Positions 4,930 to 15,303 of a stretch of DNA of 19,633 bases are shown in pieces. The notes beneath the pieces are model-generated. The model was not told where the DNA came from. It did not search any database and saw only the letters and a program-made list of their open reading frames with translations. Source of the stretch: Bdellovibrionales bacterium (GTDB lineage: Bacteria > Bdellovibrionota > Bacteriovoracia > Bacteriovoracales > Bacteriovoracaceae); contig SXUH01000065.1 in the NCBI GenBank assembly GCA_005791855.1, positions 1 to 19,633 of the forward strand, in the 5' to 3' direction. A program made the translations under genes and the position numbers. The stretch's first letter is position 1; each line of letters begins with the position of its first letter.

Positions 4930-6144
4930 TCAGACCACCATCTTCCCGGTCCCCTCGCCCAGCGACCGCATCACCTCGAGGAGGTCGTCGATCTGGCGAG
5001 TGGTATGGTTCGCGTTGGCGATGAAGCGCAGGCGCGCCTTTCCTAGGCGGACGGCCGGGAACTTCACGGAGTCGACGTGGAACCCGGAGGCGCACAGGGC
5101 CTCCTGGTAGAAGTCCGTCCGCCGTTCGTCACCGATCACCACGGGCAGGATCGGGGTTTGCTTGGAGACGAGTTCGTAGCCCAGGTTCTCAAGGCCCGCG
5201 GCCAGGTACGCCTGGTTCGTCCAGAGCCGGACGCGGCGGTCTGGTTCGTTCCGGACGATGTCGATGGCGGCGAGCACGGCGAGGACCTGGTCCGGGGGCA
5301 ACGTCGAGGTGAACCCGTAGGCGGGGCAGGTCAGCCGCAGGTTCTCTCCGATCCTCCGGTCCAGGGCAACGAAGCCGCCGATCGCGCCGTACGCCTTCGA
5401 GAGGGTGCCCATGTGGATGATGCGAGGATCGTAGCAGTTGAAGTGCTCCGCGATCCCCTGGCCGTGGGTCCCGAGGACTCCGGTTCCGTGGGCGTCGTCG
5501 ATGTACAAGAGAGCGTCGTAGCGGTTCGCCAGACTCAGGAGCTCGGGCAAGGGCGCGATGTCTCCGTCCTGGCTGAAGACCCCGTCGCTCACGATGATCT
5601 TCGTGTGAGCGTCCGAAGTCCGGAGCTGGGCTTCGAGGTGGTCGAGGTCGAGGTGCCGGTAGGTCCGGCGCTCGGCCTCCGAGAGGCGGATCCCTTCGCG
5701 GATGCTGATGTGGTTGAACTCGTCGGAGAAGTAGGCGTACTTGTACCGCTTCGTTGGCCGGAAACCGTAGAACCGGAGGATGAGGGAGGACCGGACCAGC
5801 GAACTCAGGACTCCGAGGTTCGTGAGGTACCCCGTCGCGAAGAGGAGGGCCGAGTCCTTCTTCTTGATCTCGCACAGCCGCTGCTCGAGCTGCCGGTAGA
5901 GGTCGATGTCTCCGCCGAGGAGGCGGGACTCGCAGTTCCCGACGCCGTACTTCGAAAGCCCGGACTGGGCGGCTTCGATCAGCCCCTTGCTTTTCGCGAG
6001 GGCGAGGTAGTTATTCGTACTGAAGGAAACCATCCGGCGGTTCCCCATCTCGAAGCACGGGTCCGGAAGCGAGGCCGAGAGAGGGACGTCGTGGAGGCCA
6101 CCGACATCGGACAGCCAGTTCGCGATTTCTTGGTACTCGTCCAT
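4930..6144 (-). CDS. Alpha-oxoamine synthase family PLP enzyme (BioF/KBL/SPT-like)
   Basis: 404 residues, fold-type I PLP enzyme. The Schiff-base lysine is K250 in MGTLSKAYGAIGG; D217/H219 in YIDDAHGTGVLG hold the pyridine nitrogen and cofactor; H145 in FNHIS stacks on PLP; R372 in RLRF should bind the substrate carboxylate. Such enzymes condense an amino acid with an acyl-CoA, releasing CO2 (8-amino-7-oxononanoate, 2-amino-3-ketobutyrate, aminolevulinate or 3-ketosphinganine). The substrate cannot be told from motifs. The glycine-rich loop reads YGVGNCESRLLGG instead of the usual GSGGSR, and about residues 117-137 form a basic/aromatic stretch longer than in BioF or KBL. No biotin or threonine genes lie nearby, so a lipid or signal-molecule role (SPT- or CqsA-like) is as likely as biotin. 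GGAGG is 8 nt before the ATG. Confidence 0.85.
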   Translation of the reverse strand: MDEYQEIANWLSDVGGLHDVPLSASLPDPCFEMGNRRMVSFSTNNYLALAKSKGLIEAAQSGLSKYGVGNCESRLLGGDIDLYRQLEQRLCEIKKKDSALLFATGYLTNLGVLSSLVRSSLILRFYGFRPTKRYKYAYFSDEFNHISIREGIRLSEAERRTYRHLDLDHLEAQLRTSDAHTKIIVSDGVFSQDGDIAPLPELLSLANRYDALLYIDDAHGTGVLGTHGQGIAEHFNCYDPRIIHMGTLSKAYGAIGGFVALDRRIGENLRLTCPAYGFTSTLPPDQVLAVLAAIDIVRNEPDRRVRLWTNQAYLAAGLENLGYELVSKQTPILPVVIGDERRTDFYQEALCASGFHVDSVKFPAVRLGKARLRFIANANHTTRQIDDLLEVMRSLGEGTGKMVV

Positions 6145-6392: not shown

Positions 6393-6401
6393 GTGACAAC
6401 T
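6360..6401 (+). promoter_or_regulatory. Perfect 9-bp inverted repeat enclosing the ribosome site and GTG start of nagE
   Basis: Arms AGTTGTCAC (6360-6368) and GTGACAACT (6393-6401) are separated by 24 bases. The right arm begins exactly with the GTG start codon, and the ribosome site GAGGA (6385-6389) lies in the loop. In mRNA the stem would pair the start codon; as DNA it could be an operator at the initiation site. Confidence 0.5.
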
Positions 6402-8291
6402 CTACGCAACACATTATTTGCCCAATTCCAAAAACTTGGCCAATCTCTCATGCTGCCGGTTTCGGTTCTCCCCGCCGCTGGCCTCCTCGTGGCCTTGGGC
6501 CGCGCCCTCCAGGGCTCGAAGACCTCCTGGGTCCACGCGGTTGGAGAACTCTGCTACTCGGGCGGGATTTCGATCTTCGAGCAGCTCCCGACCCTCTTCG
6601 CGGTCGGAGTCGCCATCGGGTACTCCAGCGGCGCTGCCATCGCGGGCCTCGCGGCGGTGGCGGGGTACTTCACCCTCATCAACGTCCTGAAGACCACCAC
6701 CACGCTGCTGGAGCTCAAGCTCCCCATCAACACCGGTGTGTTCGGCGGGATCCTCGTGGGCCTTTTGGCCGCGGCCCTCTACAAGAAGTTCTACGACACC
6801 AAGCTGCCGCAGTTCCTCGGATTCTTCTCCGGTAAGCGGCTCGTCCCGATCGTCACGGCGGCCGCGTCCGTCGTCCTGGGACTCCTCCTGAGCCTGGTCT
6901 GGCCTCCGATCCAGCAAGGGATCAACGACTTCGGCGTGGCCGTCATGGGCTCGGACCTGGGCCCCGCCATGTTCTCCGCGGTCAAGCGCGCGCTCATCCC
7001 CCTGGGTCTGCACCACGTCTTCTATCCTCCGTTCCTCTACCAGTTCGGAGAATTCGTCACCAGCACCGGAGAGATCGTCCGCGGTGAAGCTTCCCGCTAC
7101 TACGCCGGAGATCCGAACGCGGGGATCTTCATGGGGTCCGAGTACCCGATGATGATCTTCGGCCTCCCGGCCACGACCCTCGCCATGTACCTCCGGGCCA
7201 AGCCGGAGCGGCGGAAGACCGTCGGCGGCGTCATGGTCGCGGCGGCCCTCACCGCCATCATCACCGGCATCACCGAGCCCATCGAGTTCTCCTTCGTCTT
7301 CGTGGCCCCGGTCCTCTTCCTCGCCCACGTGGTGCTGACCTTCTTCGCCGCACTCTTCACCTCCATGCTCGACGTCCACCTGGGGTACACCTTCTCCGCC
7401 TCCGTCATCGACCTCATCCTCGGTGCCTTCAACGCCAAGAACATGAACACCATGCTCTTCATCACGGGCCCGCTGACCGCCCTCGGGTACTTCCTCACGT
7501 TCTACTGGCTCATCGGCTGGCTCGACCTCAAGACCCCGGGCCGGGAGGACCTGGCCGAAGACCAGGAAGGCACTAGCCCTGCTTCCCGCTCTGACAAGGC
7601 CGAAGCCGTGATCGCGGCCCTCGGCGGAAAGGAGAACATCAAGGCCCTCGACGCCTGCATCACCCGGCTCCGCCTGACGGTCGCGGACTTTAGCAAGGTC
7701 AAGACCTCTGCGTTCAAGCCCCTCGGTGCGACCGGACACGTCCACGCCGGTGGGGGGAACCTCCAGGTGATCTTCGGCGTGGAATCCGACATGCTTAAAG
7801 AAGAGATGAGGCGCGCGATGGCGGCGGCTCCTTCCGCCGCCACCCTCCTCTCGCCGCTCCGAGGGAAGGTCCTCGACCTCTCCAGCGTTCCCGACGAAAC
7901 CTTCGCGCAGAAGATGATGGGCGAAGGTGTTGCCATCGAGCCGGTCGACGGGAAAGTCTACTCTCCCTGCGACGGGGTGGTGGGGATGATCTTCAAGACT
8001 AACCACGCGGTGGCCATCGCCGCGGACAACGGCGCGGAGGTCCTCATCCACGTCGGGATCGACACCGTGAAGATGAACGGCGACGGGTTCGCGGGCCTGG
8101 TGAAGACCGGCGACCGCGTGACCCGGGGCCAGCTCCTGATCGAGTTCGATCTGCAGAAGGTGAAGGCCTCCGCGAAGTCGCACCTCACCCCCGTGGTGGT
8201 GACCAACGCCGGGGACCTCGCCGAAGTGAAACCGCTCCGGACCTCCGGGACCGCCGACCTCTCCACCGCACTCATAGAAATCAGGAAGTAG
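6393..8291 (+). CDS. nagE: PTS permease EIICBA, N-acetylglucosamine/glucose type
   Basis: 632 residues, close to the usual ~650 of NagE. Domains in order: EIIC membrane domain (about 1-380, many hydrophobic segments, with TGITEPIEF at 291-299 and LGLHH at 204-208), linker [13 protein letters not shown] ([11 protein letters not shown]), EIIB (about 400-480, phosphoryl Cys422 in [15 protein letters not shown]) and EIIA (about 485-632, H538 in KTNHAVAI and phosphoryl His553 in [10 protein letters not shown]). It transports and 6-phosphorylates an amino sugar or glucose at the inner membrane, taking phosphate from HPr via EIIA and EIIB. The domain order C-B-A and the EIIB active-site block closely resemble E. 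coli NagE as I recall it, so GlcNAc is favoured, but glucose cannot be excluded. The start is GTG with GAGGA close by. It is first in the nagE-ptsH-ptsI-tlpA-like operon. Confidence 0.93.
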
Positions 8292-8294
8292 ACC

Positions 8295-8555
8295 ATGGAA
8301 AAGACGCTGAAGATCCTCAACGAAGAAGGCATGCACGCGAGACCCGCGGGAGCCTTCGTGAAAGTCGCAAACGAGTTCAAGTCCGCCGTCGAGATCAGGG
8401 CCAACGGCGTGACGAAGAACGGGAAGTCCATCATGGGCATCATGAGCCTGGGCCTGGTGAAGGACTCGGAGATCACCCTAGTGGCCAGAGGCGAAGACGA
8501 GGCCCAGGCGCTGGAGAAGCTCGCCGCCCTCGTGAACAACAAGTTCCAGGTCTAG
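8295..8555 (+). CDS. ptsH: Phosphocarrier protein HPr
   Basis: 86 residues, full length. The phosphorylated histidine is H14 in EEGMHARPAG. A second block, KNGKSIMGIMSLGL, has Ser45 in the context recognised by HPr kinase/phosphorylase in bacteria that have it. HPr passes phosphate from Enzyme I to the EIIA domain of the upstream permease. AGGA lies about 9 nt before the ATG, and the gap to the permease stop is 3 nt, so the genes are cotranscribed and probably coupled. The Ser45 context resembles that of Gram-positive and many proteobacterial HPr proteins more than that of enteric HPr, hinting at HprK control; no hprK is visible here. Confidence 0.95.
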   Translation: MEKTLKILNEEGMHARPAGAFVKVANEFKSAVEIRANGVTKNGKSIMGIMSLGLVKDSEITLVARGEDEAQALEKLAALVNNKFQV

Positions 8556-8563
8556 GACTCCGC

Positions 8564-10255
8564 ATGCTGGTTGGAAAGAACGCCTCCGGTGGGATCGCCC
8601 TTGGCCGGGCCCTCGTCTTAAGTCCGCAGGAGCCGACCATCGAAGAGGGCCGGGCCCTCGACGTCGACCGGGAAGTCCGCCGCTACCGGACGGCGCTGGA
8701 GAAATCCAAGGCGGAGATCTCCCGGCTCCACGGCTCCGTCCTCGAGAAGCTCGGCGCGGACAAGGCGCAGATCTTCGAGGCCCATCTCCTCATGATCGAA
8801 GACCCGGAGCTCACCGACGCCATCGAAAACTCCATCCGCGGGGAGCACCTCCTCGCGACGAAGGCGGTGAAGACCGCCGGCGACCAGTTCGTCTCCCTCT
8901 TCCAGGCGATGGACGACGAGTACCTGCGCGAGCGCGCCCTCGACGTCCAGGACGTCACCCAGCGGGTCCTCCGGAACCTGCAGGGGATCGAGTCCGTGGA
9001 CCTCACGGCCCTCACCGAGGAGACCGTCCTCGTCGCCCACGACATCACGCCCTCGCAGATGGCCACGCTAAGCCCGAAGGTCACCGGCATCGTGACAGAG
9101 ATCGGCGGGAAGACCTCCCACACCGCGATCATGGCCCGCACCCTCGACCTCCCGGCGGTGGTCGGGGTGAAGAACGCCGCGGGGACCATCCGGACCGGGG
9201 ACGTCGTCGTCGTCGACGGCGACCACGGGAAGATCTTCCTCAATCCTTCCGACGCCGACCTCCGGGCGCACGAGAAGCAGAGAGAAGACCTCGCCCTCCA
9301 GAAGAAGTCCCTCCGGGCCCTGGTGGGTCTCCCCTCCGTCACCAGAGATCACCGGACCGTCCACCTGGAAGCGAACATCGCGTCCCCGCTGGACCTGCAG
9401 AGCGTGCTCCACAACGACGCCGACGGCATCGGCCTGTTCCGCACGGAGTTCATCTACATGGACCGGACCGCGGCGCCGTCGGAGGAAGAGCAGTTCCAGA
9501 TCTACCGCTCCGTCGTGGAGAAGCTCGGATCGAAGCCGACGGTGATCCGGACCCTCGACGTGGGCGGAGACAAGCACCTCCCGTACCTCAACATCCCACA
9601 CGAGGAGAATCCGTTTCTGGGTCTGCGGGCGATCCGCTACTGCCTCAAGCACCCCGAGGTCTTCAAGCCCCAGCTTCGGGCCCTCCTCCGGGCCTCCGTC
9701 TTCGGCGACCTCTGGGTCATGTTTCCGATGATCTCCGGCGTGGACGAAGTCCTCGCGGCCAAGGCCGTCCTGGAAGAGTGCCGCCGGGAGCTCACCGCGG
9801 AAGGGAAGCCCTTCCGTGCGGACCTCCGGATCGGCATCATGATCGAGATCCCCTCGGCCGCGCTCCTGGCCGACGTGCTCGCAGCGCACGTGGACTTCTT
9901 CAGCATCGGCACCACCGACCTCATCCAGTACGTCTGCGCCGTGGACCGGATGAACGAAGCCATCCACGACCTCTACGATCCCTTCCACCCCGCGGTCCTG
10001 CGCCTCATCCGGAACGTCATCGCCGCCGGTGAGCGGGCGGGGATCACCGTCGCCATGTGCGGGGAGATGGCCTCCAACTCGAAGCTCACCGGAGTCCTCC
10101 TCGGCTTCGGCCTCACCCACTTCAGCATGGCCCCCGCCTCGATCCTGAAGATCCGGAAGAAGATCCGGGAGGCGAGCTTCTCCGAAGCGAAGGTCGCAGC
10201 TGAGCGGGTCCTCGCTCTCGGCACCGGACGCGAGATCGAGAAGTCCCTGTCGTGA
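8564..10255 (+). CDS. ptsI: PTS Enzyme I (PEP-protein phosphotransferase)
   Basis: 563 residues, typical length. The N-terminal HPr-binding and swivelling domain carries the phosphoryl His186 in GGKTSHTAIMAR. The C-terminal PEP-binding barrel has R293 in GLFRTEFIYMDR, the metal-binding block around IMIEIPSAAL, and active-site Cys499 in VAMCGEMAS. It autophosphorylates from PEP and donates phosphate to HPr. AGGA is 6 nt before the ATG, 8 nt behind ptsH. The 3' end overlaps the next gene by 4 nt (GTGA). No missing catalytic residue is seen, so with nagE and ptsH the operon encodes a self-sufficient sugar PTS. Confidence 0.96.
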   Translation: MLVGKNASGGIALGRALVLSPQEPTIEEGRALDVDREVRRYRTALEKSKAEISRLHGSVLEKLGADKAQIFEAHLLMIEDPELTDAIENSIRGEHLLATKAVKTAGDQFVSLFQAMDDEYLRERALDVQDVTQRVLRNLQGIESVDLTALTEETVLVAHDITPSQMATLSPKVTGIVTEIGGKTSHTAIMARTLDLPAVVGVKNAAGTIRTGDVVVVDGDHGKIFLNPSDADLRAHEKQREDLALQKKSLRALVGLPSVTRDHRTVHLEANIASPLDLQSVLHNDADGIGLFRTEFIYMDRTAAPSEEEQFQIYRSVVEKLGSKPTVIRTLDVGGDKHLPYLNIPHEENPFLGLRAIRYCLKHPEVFKPQLRALLRASVFGDLWVMFPMISGVDEVLAAKAVLEECRRELTAEGKPFRADLRIGIMIEIPSAALLADVLAAHVDFFSIGTTDLIQYVCAVDRMNEAIHDLYDPFHPAVLRLIRNVIAAGERAGITVAMCGEMASNSKLTGVLLGFGLTHFSMAPASILKIRKKIREASFSEAKVAAERVLALGTGREIEKSLS

Positions 10256-11899: not shown

Positions 11900-12295
11900 T
11901 TAATTTCCCGGGAGCCGCGGAAAATGTGCGATGCTCTGGTCGAGCTGAACGAACGGGAGTTTTTCCGGTGCAAAGCACTCTCCGACAGGCAGGAGATCAG
12001 CTCTCCCGCGAATCGAGGACAGAGAAACACTAAGATACTCATCCCCGACACTATAATTCATCAGCCTGGAGCCGCAGGCCCCGCAGAACGCACGGACGAT
12101 CTCGCCGGCAACATACTCCGTCAGTCGATCCTGACCAGATAGGAACCGTAGGGTTTCCTTCCCGCAGATCACCTGCGTGGCAAAGGCCGCGCCGTGAGAC
12201 ATCCTGCACCGTGAACAGTGGCAGTTGAAGACCATGCCGGGCAGCTCGCTCGCTTCGAATCGGATCTCTCCACATAAACAGTTACCTTGGACCAT
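11900..12295 (-). CDS. GFA/CENP-V family zinc protein
   Basis: 131 residues. It shows the three zinc-binding blocks of the glutathione-dependent formaldehyde-activating (GFA/CENP-V) fold: C6-L-C8, C25-H-C27-S-R-C30 and C71-G-A-C74. Members are named after a formaldehyde-glutathione adduct enzyme, but most have no proven activity, so the substrate is open. The ATG is one base after the stop of the terpene-synthase-like gene, with AGGAG about 9 nt upstream inside that gene, so it is the third gene of the P450 operon and coupled to it. A role in handling an electrophilic or thiol adduct of the operon product is possible, but that is inference from position. Confidence 0.85.
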   Translation of the reverse strand: MVQGNCLCGEIRFEASELPGMVFNCHCSRCRMSHGAAFATQVICGKETLRFLSGQDRLTEYVAGEIVRAFCGACGSRLMNYSVGDEYLSVSLSSIRGRADLLPVGECFAPEKLPFVQLDQSIAHFPRLPGN

Positions 12296-12296
12296 A

Positions 12297-13115
12297 TTAG
12301 ATTACTCCTTTCAACTTTAGGTGAAGCTCGTGCAGGGCCCGGATCCCCCGGGCGTACTCTCGAGCTGAAAAACAATTTATCCCTTTGCCCGTCTCGATCT
12401 TCTGGAGCAGCGTCGCCAGTTCGGCTTCGAGCTCGCCCGGATCTCCCGAGACGAGGAGCTCGTTGGTCCGGTCGTCTTCTTCGAGCTCGCGGTCGTAGGT
12501 CGTCAGCACGTTCGAGATCCGCCCGGCCCGCTGGCCCAGGAGGAAGAGGTTCCTCGCCGGGCCCAGATCGGCGACGGTGAAACGGGGAACGTTCATGAGG
12601 TCGATCATCCCCGCGAGCACGATCCCCATGTTATGGTGGAGGTACAACCGGTTCTCCCCTTCGTTCCCGAGGAACCGGTGCTGGGTCAGGAGCTCGCTGT
12701 AGTGGTTGGCCAGGAAGAACTGCTTCAGATCGAAGCAGAAGACATCGGAGAGCAGGTAGTAGTTCCGGAGCCGCTCGATCCCGGTCAGGAGCTTCGCGAA
12801 CAGAGACTTCGCGAGGTCGAGGGCCAGCAGCTCCTCCCGGTCCAACGTCCCGGGGTCGACGGTGACCCGCTCGAATGGAATCCGGTAGAGGAGCTTGAGC
12901 AACCGAGGATTGAACCGGTCGGGCCTGTCCGCGTAGTCGTCGTAGAGGGTGATGAGCGTTCCCAGGAGGACCTTCAGCTCGACGACCTTCCGCCGGTCCT
13001 CGACCGAGTCGAGGGTGGTGAGCTCGTACCCCACCGGGAGGAACTCGCAGAAGAGCCTCCGGCTGCGGAAGGGCGCCACGAGGCCGAGGCCATCTAGTTC
13101 TTGCGCGTTTAGCAT
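12297..13115 (-). CDS. Class I terpene synthase-like protein (short)
   Basis: 272 residues, all-helical in appearance. It carries the class I terpene cyclase signature: an aspartate-rich D59-D60-Y-A-D63 (DDxxD) in LITLYDDYADRP, and an NSE-like triad N202-VLT-T206-YDR-E210 followed at the usual distance by Asn218 (N...E...DDRTN). Arg156 lies exactly 46 residues before N202, where bacterial terpene synthases keep the diphosphate sensor. The D59 to N202 distance (143) also fits. These residues bind Mg2+ and diphosphate and start cyclisation of a prenyl diphosphate (C10 to C20). Oddities: it is about 40-70 residues shorter than most bacterial cyclases, and the C-terminal Arg-Tyr pair normally some 80 residues after the NSE motif is beyond its end. 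GGAGGG precedes the ATG, which overlaps the P450 stop by 7 nt. Alternatives are a prenyl-binding non-catalytic homologue or another isoprenoid-fold enzyme. Confidence 0.68.
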   Translation of the reverse strand: MLNAQELDGLGLVAPFRSRRLFCEFLPVGYELTTLDSVEDRRKVVELKVLLGTLITLYDDYADRPDRFNPRLLKLLYRIPFERVTVDPGTLDREELLALDLAKSLFAKLLTGIERLRNYYLLSDVFCFDLKQFFLANHYSELLTQHRFLGNEGENRLYLHHNMGIVLAGMIDLMNVPRFTVADLGPARNLFLLGQRAGRISNVLTTYDRELEEDDRTNELLVSGDPGELEAELATLLQKIETGKGINCFSAREYARGIRALHELHLKLKGVI

Positions 13116-14359
13116 GCGACCCTCCTCTCGAGGCGAAGGAACAACGGGGACTTCGTGTGCGCGGTGATCAGCCCTTCGATCTCAGGGGGCTCGGGCCTCG
13201 CGGGGACGAGCCGGTAGCGCTCGCAGAGTTTCTGCAGGACCACCGTCGCCTCCATCATCGCGAGCGCGGCTCCGATGCAGATCCGGCTGCCTTCTCCGAA
13301 GGGGATGAAGGCATGGGAGTGCGCCGGGGCTTCGAGGAACCGTTCCGGCAGGAAGCGCTCCGGCTCCGTGTACGCCTCGGGGCATCTCTGGACGTGCCGG
13401 ACGCTGATGAAGATCTGACCGCCGGCCCGGATCTTCTGTCCCGAGATCACGTCGTCCTCCGCGGCCTGCCGCGGGAGGAAGTAGGCCGATGGGTAGAGCC
13501 GCAGGGACTCCTTGTACGCGGCCTGGGTGTAGGTGGCCCCTCGGTACCCCAGGTGCCTCTCGGCGAAGATCTTCTCCTGGACCCTCTGATCCCTCGAGAT
13601 CGAATCCACCGCGAAGATCAGCGACGAGGCCGTCGTATCGTACCCCGCGAACATGAAGGCCTTCACCTGATCCCGCATGAACGACCGGGGGAGGTCCCGC
13701 TTCTTTAGTTCCCGCAGGAGGGAGACCTGCTCCTCCCCGATCCCCTCGTCGATGATCCGATCGAGCTCGCGGTGGATGACCTCGAGGTACCGGGCCCGCT
13801 TGAACGAATACGGCTTCGGGATCAGGCTCCGGAGGCTCTCCCCGGCCATGCGGTTGAGCTCGACGAACGCTTCGTTGAGCTGGTCGGCTTGGGACTGGAT
13901 GTCCCGGTCCAGGATGAAGATCCCGGCGGTTCGCAGGACGAGCCGGGTGAGGAAGGGCTTCAGGTCGACGACCTCTCCTTCCTGCGCGGCCCGGTCGAAG
14001 CCGTCGAACTCTTCGCGCACGAATCCTTCGACGAACTTACTTAGCCGCAAGGCCCGCTCCTGGTGCATGAGGTGCCCGGCCATCTGCCGGACACCCTTGG
14101 CGTCCTGGTCGCTCAACTGGATGAGTCCGGTGGGCCCGGAGAGAGGAAGGATCTTCTTGAGCACGAGGGAAGACTTCGGGTAGTTCTCCTTCCGGTCCTC
14201 CAGCACGTGCTTGGCCTGGTCCGGGTGGTAGCAGAAGTAGAAGTCTTTGACTCCCAGTCGAAGCCGGCGCACCTGGCGGGGATCGGCCGGCCTCACCTGT
14301 TCGAAGAACAGGTACGGGCTCTTTTGAAAATTTAGCAGCAACTTAATGGATGAAAGCAT
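13109..14359 (-). CDS. Cytochrome P450 monooxygenase
   Basis: 416 residues from ATG 14359. The I-helix oxygen-activation motif is AGYDTT (238-243), the K-helix ExxR is E284-S-L-R287, PERF is present (TEPERFLPERF), and the haem loop FIPFGEGSRICIG places the proximal ligand at Cys361. There is no membrane anchor, so it is a soluble bacterial P450 that needs a ferredoxin or other donor encoded elsewhere. The substrate cannot be read from sequence. It is first in the operon with the terpene synthase-like gene (7-nt overlap) and GFA gene, suggesting it oxidises the terpenoid product. GAGG lies 5 nt before this ATG; a TTG ten codons upstream (14389) lacks a ribosome site and would run through the regulatory half-site. 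Expression is probably controlled by the divergent LysR gene. Confidence 0.92.
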   Translation of the reverse strand: MLSSIKLLLNFQKSPYLFFEQVRPADPRQVRRLRLGVKDFYFCYHPDQAKHVLEDRKENYPKSSLVLKKILPLSGPTGLIQLSDQDAKGVRQMAGHLMHQERALRLSKFVEGFVREEFDGFDRAAQEGEVVDLKPFLTRLVLRTAGIFILDRDIQSQADQLNEAFVELNRMAGESLRSLIPKPYSFKRARYLEVIHRELDRIIDEGIGEEQVSLLRELKKRDLPRSFMRDQVKAFMFAGYDTTASSLIFAVDSISRDQRVQEKIFAERHLGYRGATYTQAAYKESLRLYPSAYFLPRQAAEDDVISGQKIRAGGQIFISVRHVQRCPEAYTEPERFLPERFLEAPAHSHAFIPFGEGSRICIGAALAMMEATVVLQKLCERYRLVPARPEPPEIEGLITAHTKSPLFLRLERRVAC

Positions 14360-14388
14360 ACGGACCTCACTAGGGCTGTAATCTGGCA

Positions 14389-14438
14389 AACTTATTACTT
14401 GAATAAAAGTGATCTTTTGTTATAAGTTGATAACTTAT
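14389..14438. promoter_or_regulatory. Putative LysR operator: three AACTTAT half-sites
   Basis: The half-site AACTTAT occurs at 14389-14395, as its complement ATAAGTT at 14422-14428, and again at 14432-14438. The last two form an inverted repeat with a 3-base spacer (GAT). The left copy is 33 bp from the second, about three helical turns. LysR regulators commonly bind a strong dyad near their own promoter plus a weaker site near the target promoter, matching this layout between lysR and the P450 operon. The right copy overlaps the lysR ATG (14437). Confidence 0.55.
14399..14426 (+). promoter_or_regulatory. Possible lysR promoter
   Basis: TTGAAT at 14399-14404 and TATAAG at 14421-14426 are separated by 16 bp. 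Transcription would begin only a few bases before the ATG at 14437, giving a nearly leaderless mRNA, consistent with the lack of a ribosome site. The -10 lies inside the half-site dyad, fitting autorepression. Confidence 0.4.
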
Positions 14439-15303
14439 GGATATAGATCGCCTCAGATACTTCGTCGTCCTTTGTGATTCCAGCTCCATGAGAGAGGCCG
14501 CCGAGCACCTCCACATCTCCCAGCCAGCGCTCTCGAAGGCGATGAAGCTCCTGGAGTACGAACTCGGGGAGAAGCTCTTCGTCGCCTCGGGCCGGCGGAT
14601 CCTGATCACCGACAAGGGCAGGCTCATCGCCGAGAGGACCCGGAAGATCCTCGGAGACCTCGCTCGGATCACCGAGCAGGATGCGGCCGTGGAAGGGAGC
14701 CGCATCCGGATCGGCTCGTTTGAAGTCTTCACCACCTACTTCATGGGCCAGGTGGCCACGACCATCCTCAAGGACTTCCGGATCCAGCTGCGGGAGCTAA
14801 CCCCGGGCCAGCTCGAAGAGCAGATCGCCCTCGGCCACGTCGACGTCGGCATCACATACCTTCCGATCCCGAACCGGGAGCTCGAGTTCATCAAGGTGGC
14901 CGACGTCGAGATGGGGATCTACGGCGTGGAGAAGAACTTCAAGAAGCTGGAGCTCCAGGAGCTGCCCTTCGTCGTCCCCATCACTCCGGTCCAGGGGGCC
15001 CCACACAAGGTGAAGGGACTGGACGGCTGGCCCGACGACCGGATCCCCCGGACCGTGCGGTACCAGGTCGAACTCATGGAGACGGCTTTGGAATTCTGCC
15101 GGCGGGGCCTGGCGGTGGCGTACCTGCCGAGGTTCGTGGTGGAGCTCCATAACCGGCAGGTGAAGGCGGAGTTCACGTTGCAGCAGCTCGCCTCCCCTCC
15201 GGGCCTCAGGTCCTCGAAGCAGGGAGTCTTCGTGGTCAAGCGGAAGACGGACGTGGAGCATCCGGTGTTCCGGAAGCTTGCGACGGCCCTGCGGAACATC
15301 TAG
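14437..15303 (+). CDS. LysR-type transcriptional regulator
   Basis: 288 residues, standard length. An N-terminal winged helix-turn-helix (about 1-60, MDIDRLRYFVVL ... ISQPALSKAMKLLEYELGEKLF) is followed by a LysR substrate-binding domain (about 88-288, RIRIGSFEVFTTYF, GHVDVGITYLP, RRGLAVAYLPRFVV). It is divergent to the P450 / terpene synthase-like / GFA operon with 77 bp between starts and is therefore its most likely regulator, probably responding to a substrate or product. The effector is unknown. It lacks a visible Shine-Dalgarno before the ATG, and its own start codon lies inside the half-site dyad. No truncation seen. Confidence 0.9.
   Translation: MDIDRLRYFVVLCDSSSMREAAEHLHISQPALSKAMKLLEYELGEKLFVASGRRILITDKGRLIAERTRKILGDLARITEQDAAVEGSRIRIGSFEVFTTYFMGQVATTILKDFRIQLRELTPGQLEEQIALGHVDVGITYLPIPNRELEFIKVADVEMGIYGVEKNFKKLELQELPFVVPITPVQGAPHKVKGLDGWPDDRIPRTVRYQVELMETALEFCRRGLAVAYLPRFVVELHNRQVKAEFTLQQLASPPGLRSSKQGVFVVKRKTDVEHPVFRKLATALRNI

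Follow-up and report, generated by a model that had tools for sequence, protein, structure and literature searches.

A probable divergent terpene synthase encoded beside a P450

Does a short, unannotated gene from a relative of the predatory Bdellovibrio bacteria encode a terpene synthase? The gene lies in the window studied here, a stretch of 19,633 nucleotides of a Bdellovibrionales bacterium (assembly GCA_005791855.1, contig SXUH01000065.1). The original prediction, made from the sequence alone, had placed its 272 amino acid product, P0001, among the class I terpene synthases as a separate clade. Our analysis supports this core claim, and we conclude that P0001 is very probably a divergent bacterial class I terpene synthase. 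Its separate standing within that class and the assignment itself are both supported by the predicted fold, profile links through its relatives, an hhalign comparison of profiles, near-invariant metal motifs and linkage to a cytochrome P450 gene. The open reading frame (ORF) is real, and is found on the minus strand, which the prediction had left out. A script located D59, D60, D63, R156, N202, T206, E210 and N218 where they had been placed, with R156 exactly 46 residues ahead of N202. The protein had also been called unrecognised. This is true of the Bdellovibrionota branch, where the names shown read "hypothetical protein"; among the Legionella relatives, however, one already bears the name "terpene synthase family protein".

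Conservation of the metal-binding motifs

P0001 possesses an Asp-rich motif and, further on, a triad of the Asn/Ser/Glu (NSE) type with N/D, S/T and E at four-residue spacing (N202, T206, E210). Such spacings had been considered hard to obtain by chance. In 100,000 shuffles of P0001, DDxx[DE] followed 110–180 residues later by [ND]xxx[ST]xxxE arose 380 times, and both metal motifs in order plus Arg at -46 arose 45 times; the motif in one protein is thus suggestive and not decisive. Among the other mechanically called ORFs of the fetched neighbourhoods (200–600 amino acids, n=210), two contained both motifs in any order and none contained them in order. Chance as the source of the motif was rejected on conservation within the family, and not on the shuffles alone.

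A protein search with P0001 yielded 77 relatives, and removal of three of the 78 proteins, each shorter than 240 amino acids, left an alignment of 75 rows including the query. Residues D59, D60, D63, N202, T206, R209, E210, D215 and E219 are invariant in this first alignment (75/75). A second search round, in which 120 of 164 matches were listed, led to a wider set of 144 proteins of 240–335 amino acids, comprising 129 database proteins and 15 from loci, with two of the locus-derived proteins more than 99% identical to a database row. Here D59, D60, N202 and E210 are each present in 143 members, and D63, T206 and R209 in all 144. The picture was the same in the 138 rows with less than 90% identity and in the 92 rows with less than 70% identity.

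The sole member to fail the motif test comes from Candidatus Uabimicrobium (Ca. Uabimicrobium) amorphum, which carries two family members in tandem (L011:6737-7807 and L011:7878-8849). In the upstream copy D59, D60, N202 and E210 are replaced by Y, E, R and S, respectively, and judged by these residues it looks catalytically dead beside an intact copy. Since non-catalytic members do arise, P0001 might have the isoprenoid synthase fold yet lack catalysis or act in some other way, for instance by binding a prenyl diphosphate. We consider this very improbable, as the metal residues are kept by 143 of the 144 members and P0001 itself keeps all of them.

Remote homology and predicted fold

The profile search proposed in the original prediction gave a divided answer: the relatives of P0001 match terpene synthase models, a few of them above cut-off, whereas P0001 does not. 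Terpene_syn_C_2 (PF19086) matches 31 of the 75 aligned proteins and Terpene_synth_C matches 12 (E up to 1). In 42 spread members scanned at E up to 0.01 the corresponding numbers were 11 and 8, with best values of 3.8e-6 and 4.4e-6. A Legionella gratiana protein scored 24.6 bits against the curated Terpene_syn_C_2 cut-off of 23.7, and one Bdellovibrionota genome also lies above this cut-off when in-frame neighbours are counted, its best stretch scoring 22.9. Among the matches listed, at least four database relatives (P0130, P0135, P0140 and P0142) carry PF19086.

For comparison of profiles, 16 canonical myxobacterial sequences were taken from 20 fetched regions by the motifs ND..S...E and DD, so that their second NSE Asp is there by choice. 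The hhalign run of the family against these terpene synthases gave P 2e-4, with controls at 0.18–0.73, and the realigned output places the Asp-rich motif, R156 and the NSE triad on the canonical columns. The original prediction had also staked its case on the fold, and the structure predicted for P0001 is the all-helical isoprenoid synthase fold over the whole chain.

Chain-lengthening prenyl diphosphate synthases of the polyprenyl_synt type belong to the same fold superfamily and have the DDxxD motif in common with terpene synthases. When the first-alignment profile was run against PDB sequences, one polyprenyl synthetase chain was listed (E 0.86). That P0001 is an enzyme of this kind is nonetheless scarcely credible. 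No polyprenyl_synt row was obtained for the scanned family proteins, nor among 25 of 34 families listed; the model finds three members in the same genome with E <1e-40; and the second motif is of the NSE type and not another DDxxD.

Measured against Terpene_syn_C_2, which represents bacterial and fungal class I terpene synthases, the family is alike in its remote homology via the relatives, the DDxxD and N/T/E residues, the fold and a basic residue just before the NSE Glu. It is unlike in that P0001 has no match to the model, a hydrophobic residue or Thr replaces the second NSE Asp, the P0001 C-terminus is too short for the RY dimer of canonical cyclases and the sensor Arg is not strictly kept. 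Identity to the solved bacterial selinadiene, T-muurolol, epi-isozizaene and pentalenene synthases is about 10–16%, and to the plant bornyl diphosphate and 5-epi-aristolochene synthases (PF03936) it is 8–13%. P0001 is a single domain of 272 amino acids and leaves no space for the N-terminal domain of plant terpene synthases. The plant comparison says little on function, because the R440/R441 position is argued in PMC6028579 not to bind diphosphate in the enzyme described there.

Departures from the canonical motif set

PMC5082573 characterises bacterial cyclases by DDxxD, ND(L,I,V)xSxxxE, a C-terminal RY dimer and an Arg that as a rule lies 46 residues ahead of the NSE motif; this set is only partly present in the family. 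In VenA, according to PMC10325987, the diphosphate is contacted by the sensor Arg211, by RY and by Lys263, which precedes the NSE Glu. The "full" motif geometry of the original prediction is too strong a description. The second NSE Asp occurs in none of the 144 members, and two of the features cited, R156 and N218, are weaker than claimed beside the near-invariant metal residues, position 218 being Asn in 70 and Gly in 62.

Several results weigh against a terpene synthase assignment. Position 203, the place of the second NSE Asp, is occupied by Val (101), Leu (23), Ile (9), Thr (5), Met (5) or Phe (1), and the R156 column holds Arg in 110 of the 144 members, the others listed being Lys (12), Gln (10), Ala (4), Leu (4), Ser (3) and Cys (1); an RY string was present in the tail of nine. 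P0001 alone had no Pfam or NCBIfam match above cut-off, its sole row being DALR_1 (E 0.13), and no terpene synthase was matched among PDB sequences either by P0001 or by the first-alignment profile at E up to 10. The hhalign probability was only 46%, and the alignment without realignment covered 68 columns from the NSE motif onward, that is, the last third. TM-scores from Foldseek were moderate (query-normalised 0.53–0.69 in 48 of the 50 rows), and plain co-inheritance would likewise make P450 and synthase distances correlate. No reported activity was found for any family member.

How might the diphosphate be held with this altered set? R209, the basic residue before the NSE Glu, has a basic counterpart in all 16 canonical sequences. 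After realignment R156 stands on a column that is Arg in 16/16 of these and G164 on one that is Gly in 10/16, with a gap between the two. The predicted model has a helix break at G164, which is kept in 143 of the 144 members. Since these columns match, the place of the sensor and the break in the helix both seem to have been retained, with four more residues between them than in the canonical sequences, but the Arg itself is sometimes missing; Leu takes its place in some Legionella members, L017 and L019 among them. R156 was not accepted as a proven diphosphate sensor since it varies, though its position fits. Perhaps R199, R17 or R188 stands in for it. As to the RY dimer, P0001 ends 62 residues past E210, and the canonical RY lies 78–86 residues past the Glu in those 14 of the 16 sequences that contain an RY, which leaves the P0001 C-terminus too short for it.

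Gene cluster

The features of the locus are presented in Table 1. The P450 ORF opens with TTG at 14389, but translation more probably begins at an in-frame ATG at 14359.

Table 1. Positions of the synthase gene, its motif codons and the neighbouring features in the window
Feature	Position	Strand	Basis
Divergent class I terpene synthase gene, probable (protein P0001, 272 amino acids)	12297..13115	-	ORF, predicted fold, family conservation
Codons of residues 59-63 (DDYAD), Asp-rich metal motif	12927..12941	-	Conservation; hhalign on canonical Asp-rich columns
R156 codon, matching in position the canonical diphosphate-sensing Arg at -46	12648..12650	-	Realigned hhalign column
Codons of residues 202-210 (NVLTTYDRE), NSE-type triad N202/T206/E210, R209 before Glu	12486..12512	-	Conservation; hhalign on canonical NSE
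Cytochrome P450 gene, 7-base overlap with synthase gene	13109..14389	-	Pfam p450 E 4.4e-50; FGEGSRICIG heme motif, AGYDT, ESLR
GFA-type protein gene, 1-base gap after synthase stop	11900..12295	-	Pfam GFA E 2.1e-22
Divergent LysR-type regulator gene	14437..15303	+	Pfam HTH_1 and LysR_substrate
Candidate LysR box GTTA-N8-TAAC, 2 bases before LysR start codon	14419..14434	.	Same-offset recurrence

Neighbours were sought in 25 relative loci, 11 duplicates having been removed, by phmmer from the window proteins only (E up to 1e-4), and some of these loci end near the cluster. The P450 gene adjoins the synthase gene in 22 loci, a divergent LysR gene is present in 14 and a GFA gene directly follows the synthase in eight. 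The P450 and synthase ORFs overlap in 20 of the 22 pairs when the most upstream start is taken. An apparent presence of the heme motif in only 15 of 23 P450s was dismissed as an artefact of the strict pattern, the remaining ones carrying Lys for Arg. P450s and terpene synthases are commonly encoded side by side. CYP170A1 (albaflavenone monooxygenase) and pentalenene oxygenase are both among the best NCBIfam rows of the window P450, which belongs to neither family (75.5 bits where the cut-off is 700, and 104.7 where it is 800). Both of these enzymes act as P450s in terpene pathways.

Some Legionella clusters are larger. Loci L014 and L016 contain the P450, the synthase and then an extra FAD-type oxidoreductase and a GST-like protein (L016:8795-10021 and L014:2952-4211), with the FAD matches in L014 below curated cut-offs. 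At the Myxococcota locus (L010) an FAD-binding oxidoreductase is encoded, and phmmer from the window protein found no P450 there. The same search found none at the Ca. Uabimicrobium tandem locus, which has a polyprenyl synthetase and a prenyltransferase-repeat protein nearby. At the Legionella anisa locus (L020:8025-8795) the same search likewise detected no P450, and the synthase ORF has a shortened start, giving the impression of a cluster in decay.

The additional FAD enzyme and GST-like protein hint at further partners, and might be expected if the protein were a prenyltransferase with a terpene synthase fold, ionising a prenyl diphosphate but, rather than cyclising the prenyl group, passing it to an acceptor whose prenylated form would afterwards be modified by the P450. 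The active site departs from the canonical one, with the NSE Asp gone, RY mostly gone and the sensor Arg variable, and the N-prenyltransferase DabA (6vkz) appears among the Foldseek rows, at rank 37 with a TM-score of 0.42. It stands there below many cyclases, however, and of the seven neighbours from the window that were looked for in the 25 loci the P450 recurs most constantly, no search having been made for acceptor-making genes; a P450 is the customary companion of a terpene synthase. We therefore regard a prenyltransferase as unlikely and retain a terpene synthase as the probable function of P0001.

The candidate LysR box was found in exact form at the same offset from the LysR start in nine of 14 regions, counting the window, where mononucleotide shuffles would give 0.07; being related, the regions are not independent. 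Near matches were identified in L012, L050 and L052, and none in L015. The L008 region had been cut wrongly in this comparison owing to an overcalled LysR start. The box fits the T-N11-A rule of LysR boxes. An inverted repeat in the window, ATAAGTT-ATC-AACTTAT, was set aside, being reported in no other region compared.

Distribution and phylogeny

Searching with the family profile (E up to 1e-10) revealed members in 18 of 368 Bdellovibrionota genomes, including that of the window, and Terpene_syn_C_2 (E up to 0.001) in one of the 368. Since the standard models miss most of the family, genome mining overlooks the greater part of the terpenoid chemistry of predatory Bdellovibrionota. The family also occurs in nine of 45 genomes of the genus Legionella, and the carriers with a name belong to Bdellovibrionota, Legionella and Ca. 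Uabimicrobium, with a single genome from Myxococcota. A culturable carrier is Bdellovibrio sp. qaytius (L009). In the phylogenetic tree the window protein groups with three Bdellovibrionota proteins (support 100/99). L052, which is from a genome of the window's own genus, falls in another clade with a different P450 type, so that species relationships do not by themselves account for which genomes have the family and in which form. Either transfer or ancient duplication could explain this.

The Ca. Uabimicrobium genome with the tandem pair also has two distant relatives that, examined by eye, are fused to, or directly followed by, a SAM-dependent methyltransferase-like part (L062:886-2754 and L063:946-2763). 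These recall terpenes made from methylated prenyl diphosphates.

Proposed function

If P0001 acts as a class I terpene synthase, D59, D60 and D63 on one helix and N202, T206 and E210 on another would coordinate a Mg2+ cluster. The diphosphate of a linear prenyl diphosphate, which could be C10, C15 or C20, would be gripped by basic residues, namely R209, R199 and R17, which are near-invariant, together with R156 in the members that have it. On departure of the diphosphate, the carbocation would be cyclised or quenched in the all-helical pocket, and the P450 of the overlapping upstream gene would then oxidise the terpene. The divergent LysR regulator may switch the P450/synthase pair via the box beside its own start.

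A synthase clade in a compact P450 cluster is known in kind; what is new is the motif set and the carriers. No publication about the family was found in the open literature, as covered by titles and the starts of abstracts, with most subscription papers and preprints outside this coverage. More tentatively, the family could be a separate subfamily with a diphosphate grip of its own (no second NSE Asp, mostly no RY and a dispensable sensor Arg, with near-invariant R17, R188, R199 and R209), making a P450-oxidised terpenoid under LysR control for an invasive or predatory life style. The last element is proposed because of the organisms that carry the family. The altered motif set could serve as a natural experiment on which of the canonical residues are truly required for class I catalysis, and the LysR-P450-synthase unit is small enough to be expressed whole.

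Other genes in the window

Elsewhere in the window, nucleotides 4930-6144 (minus strand) encode a class I/II aminotransferase-family enzyme by Pfam, which on inspection by eye resembles alpha-oxoamine synthases. Three consecutive ORFs of 632, 86 and 563 amino acids at 6393-10255 (plus strand) have, when inspected by eye, the appearance of a sugar PTS permease, HPr and enzyme I.
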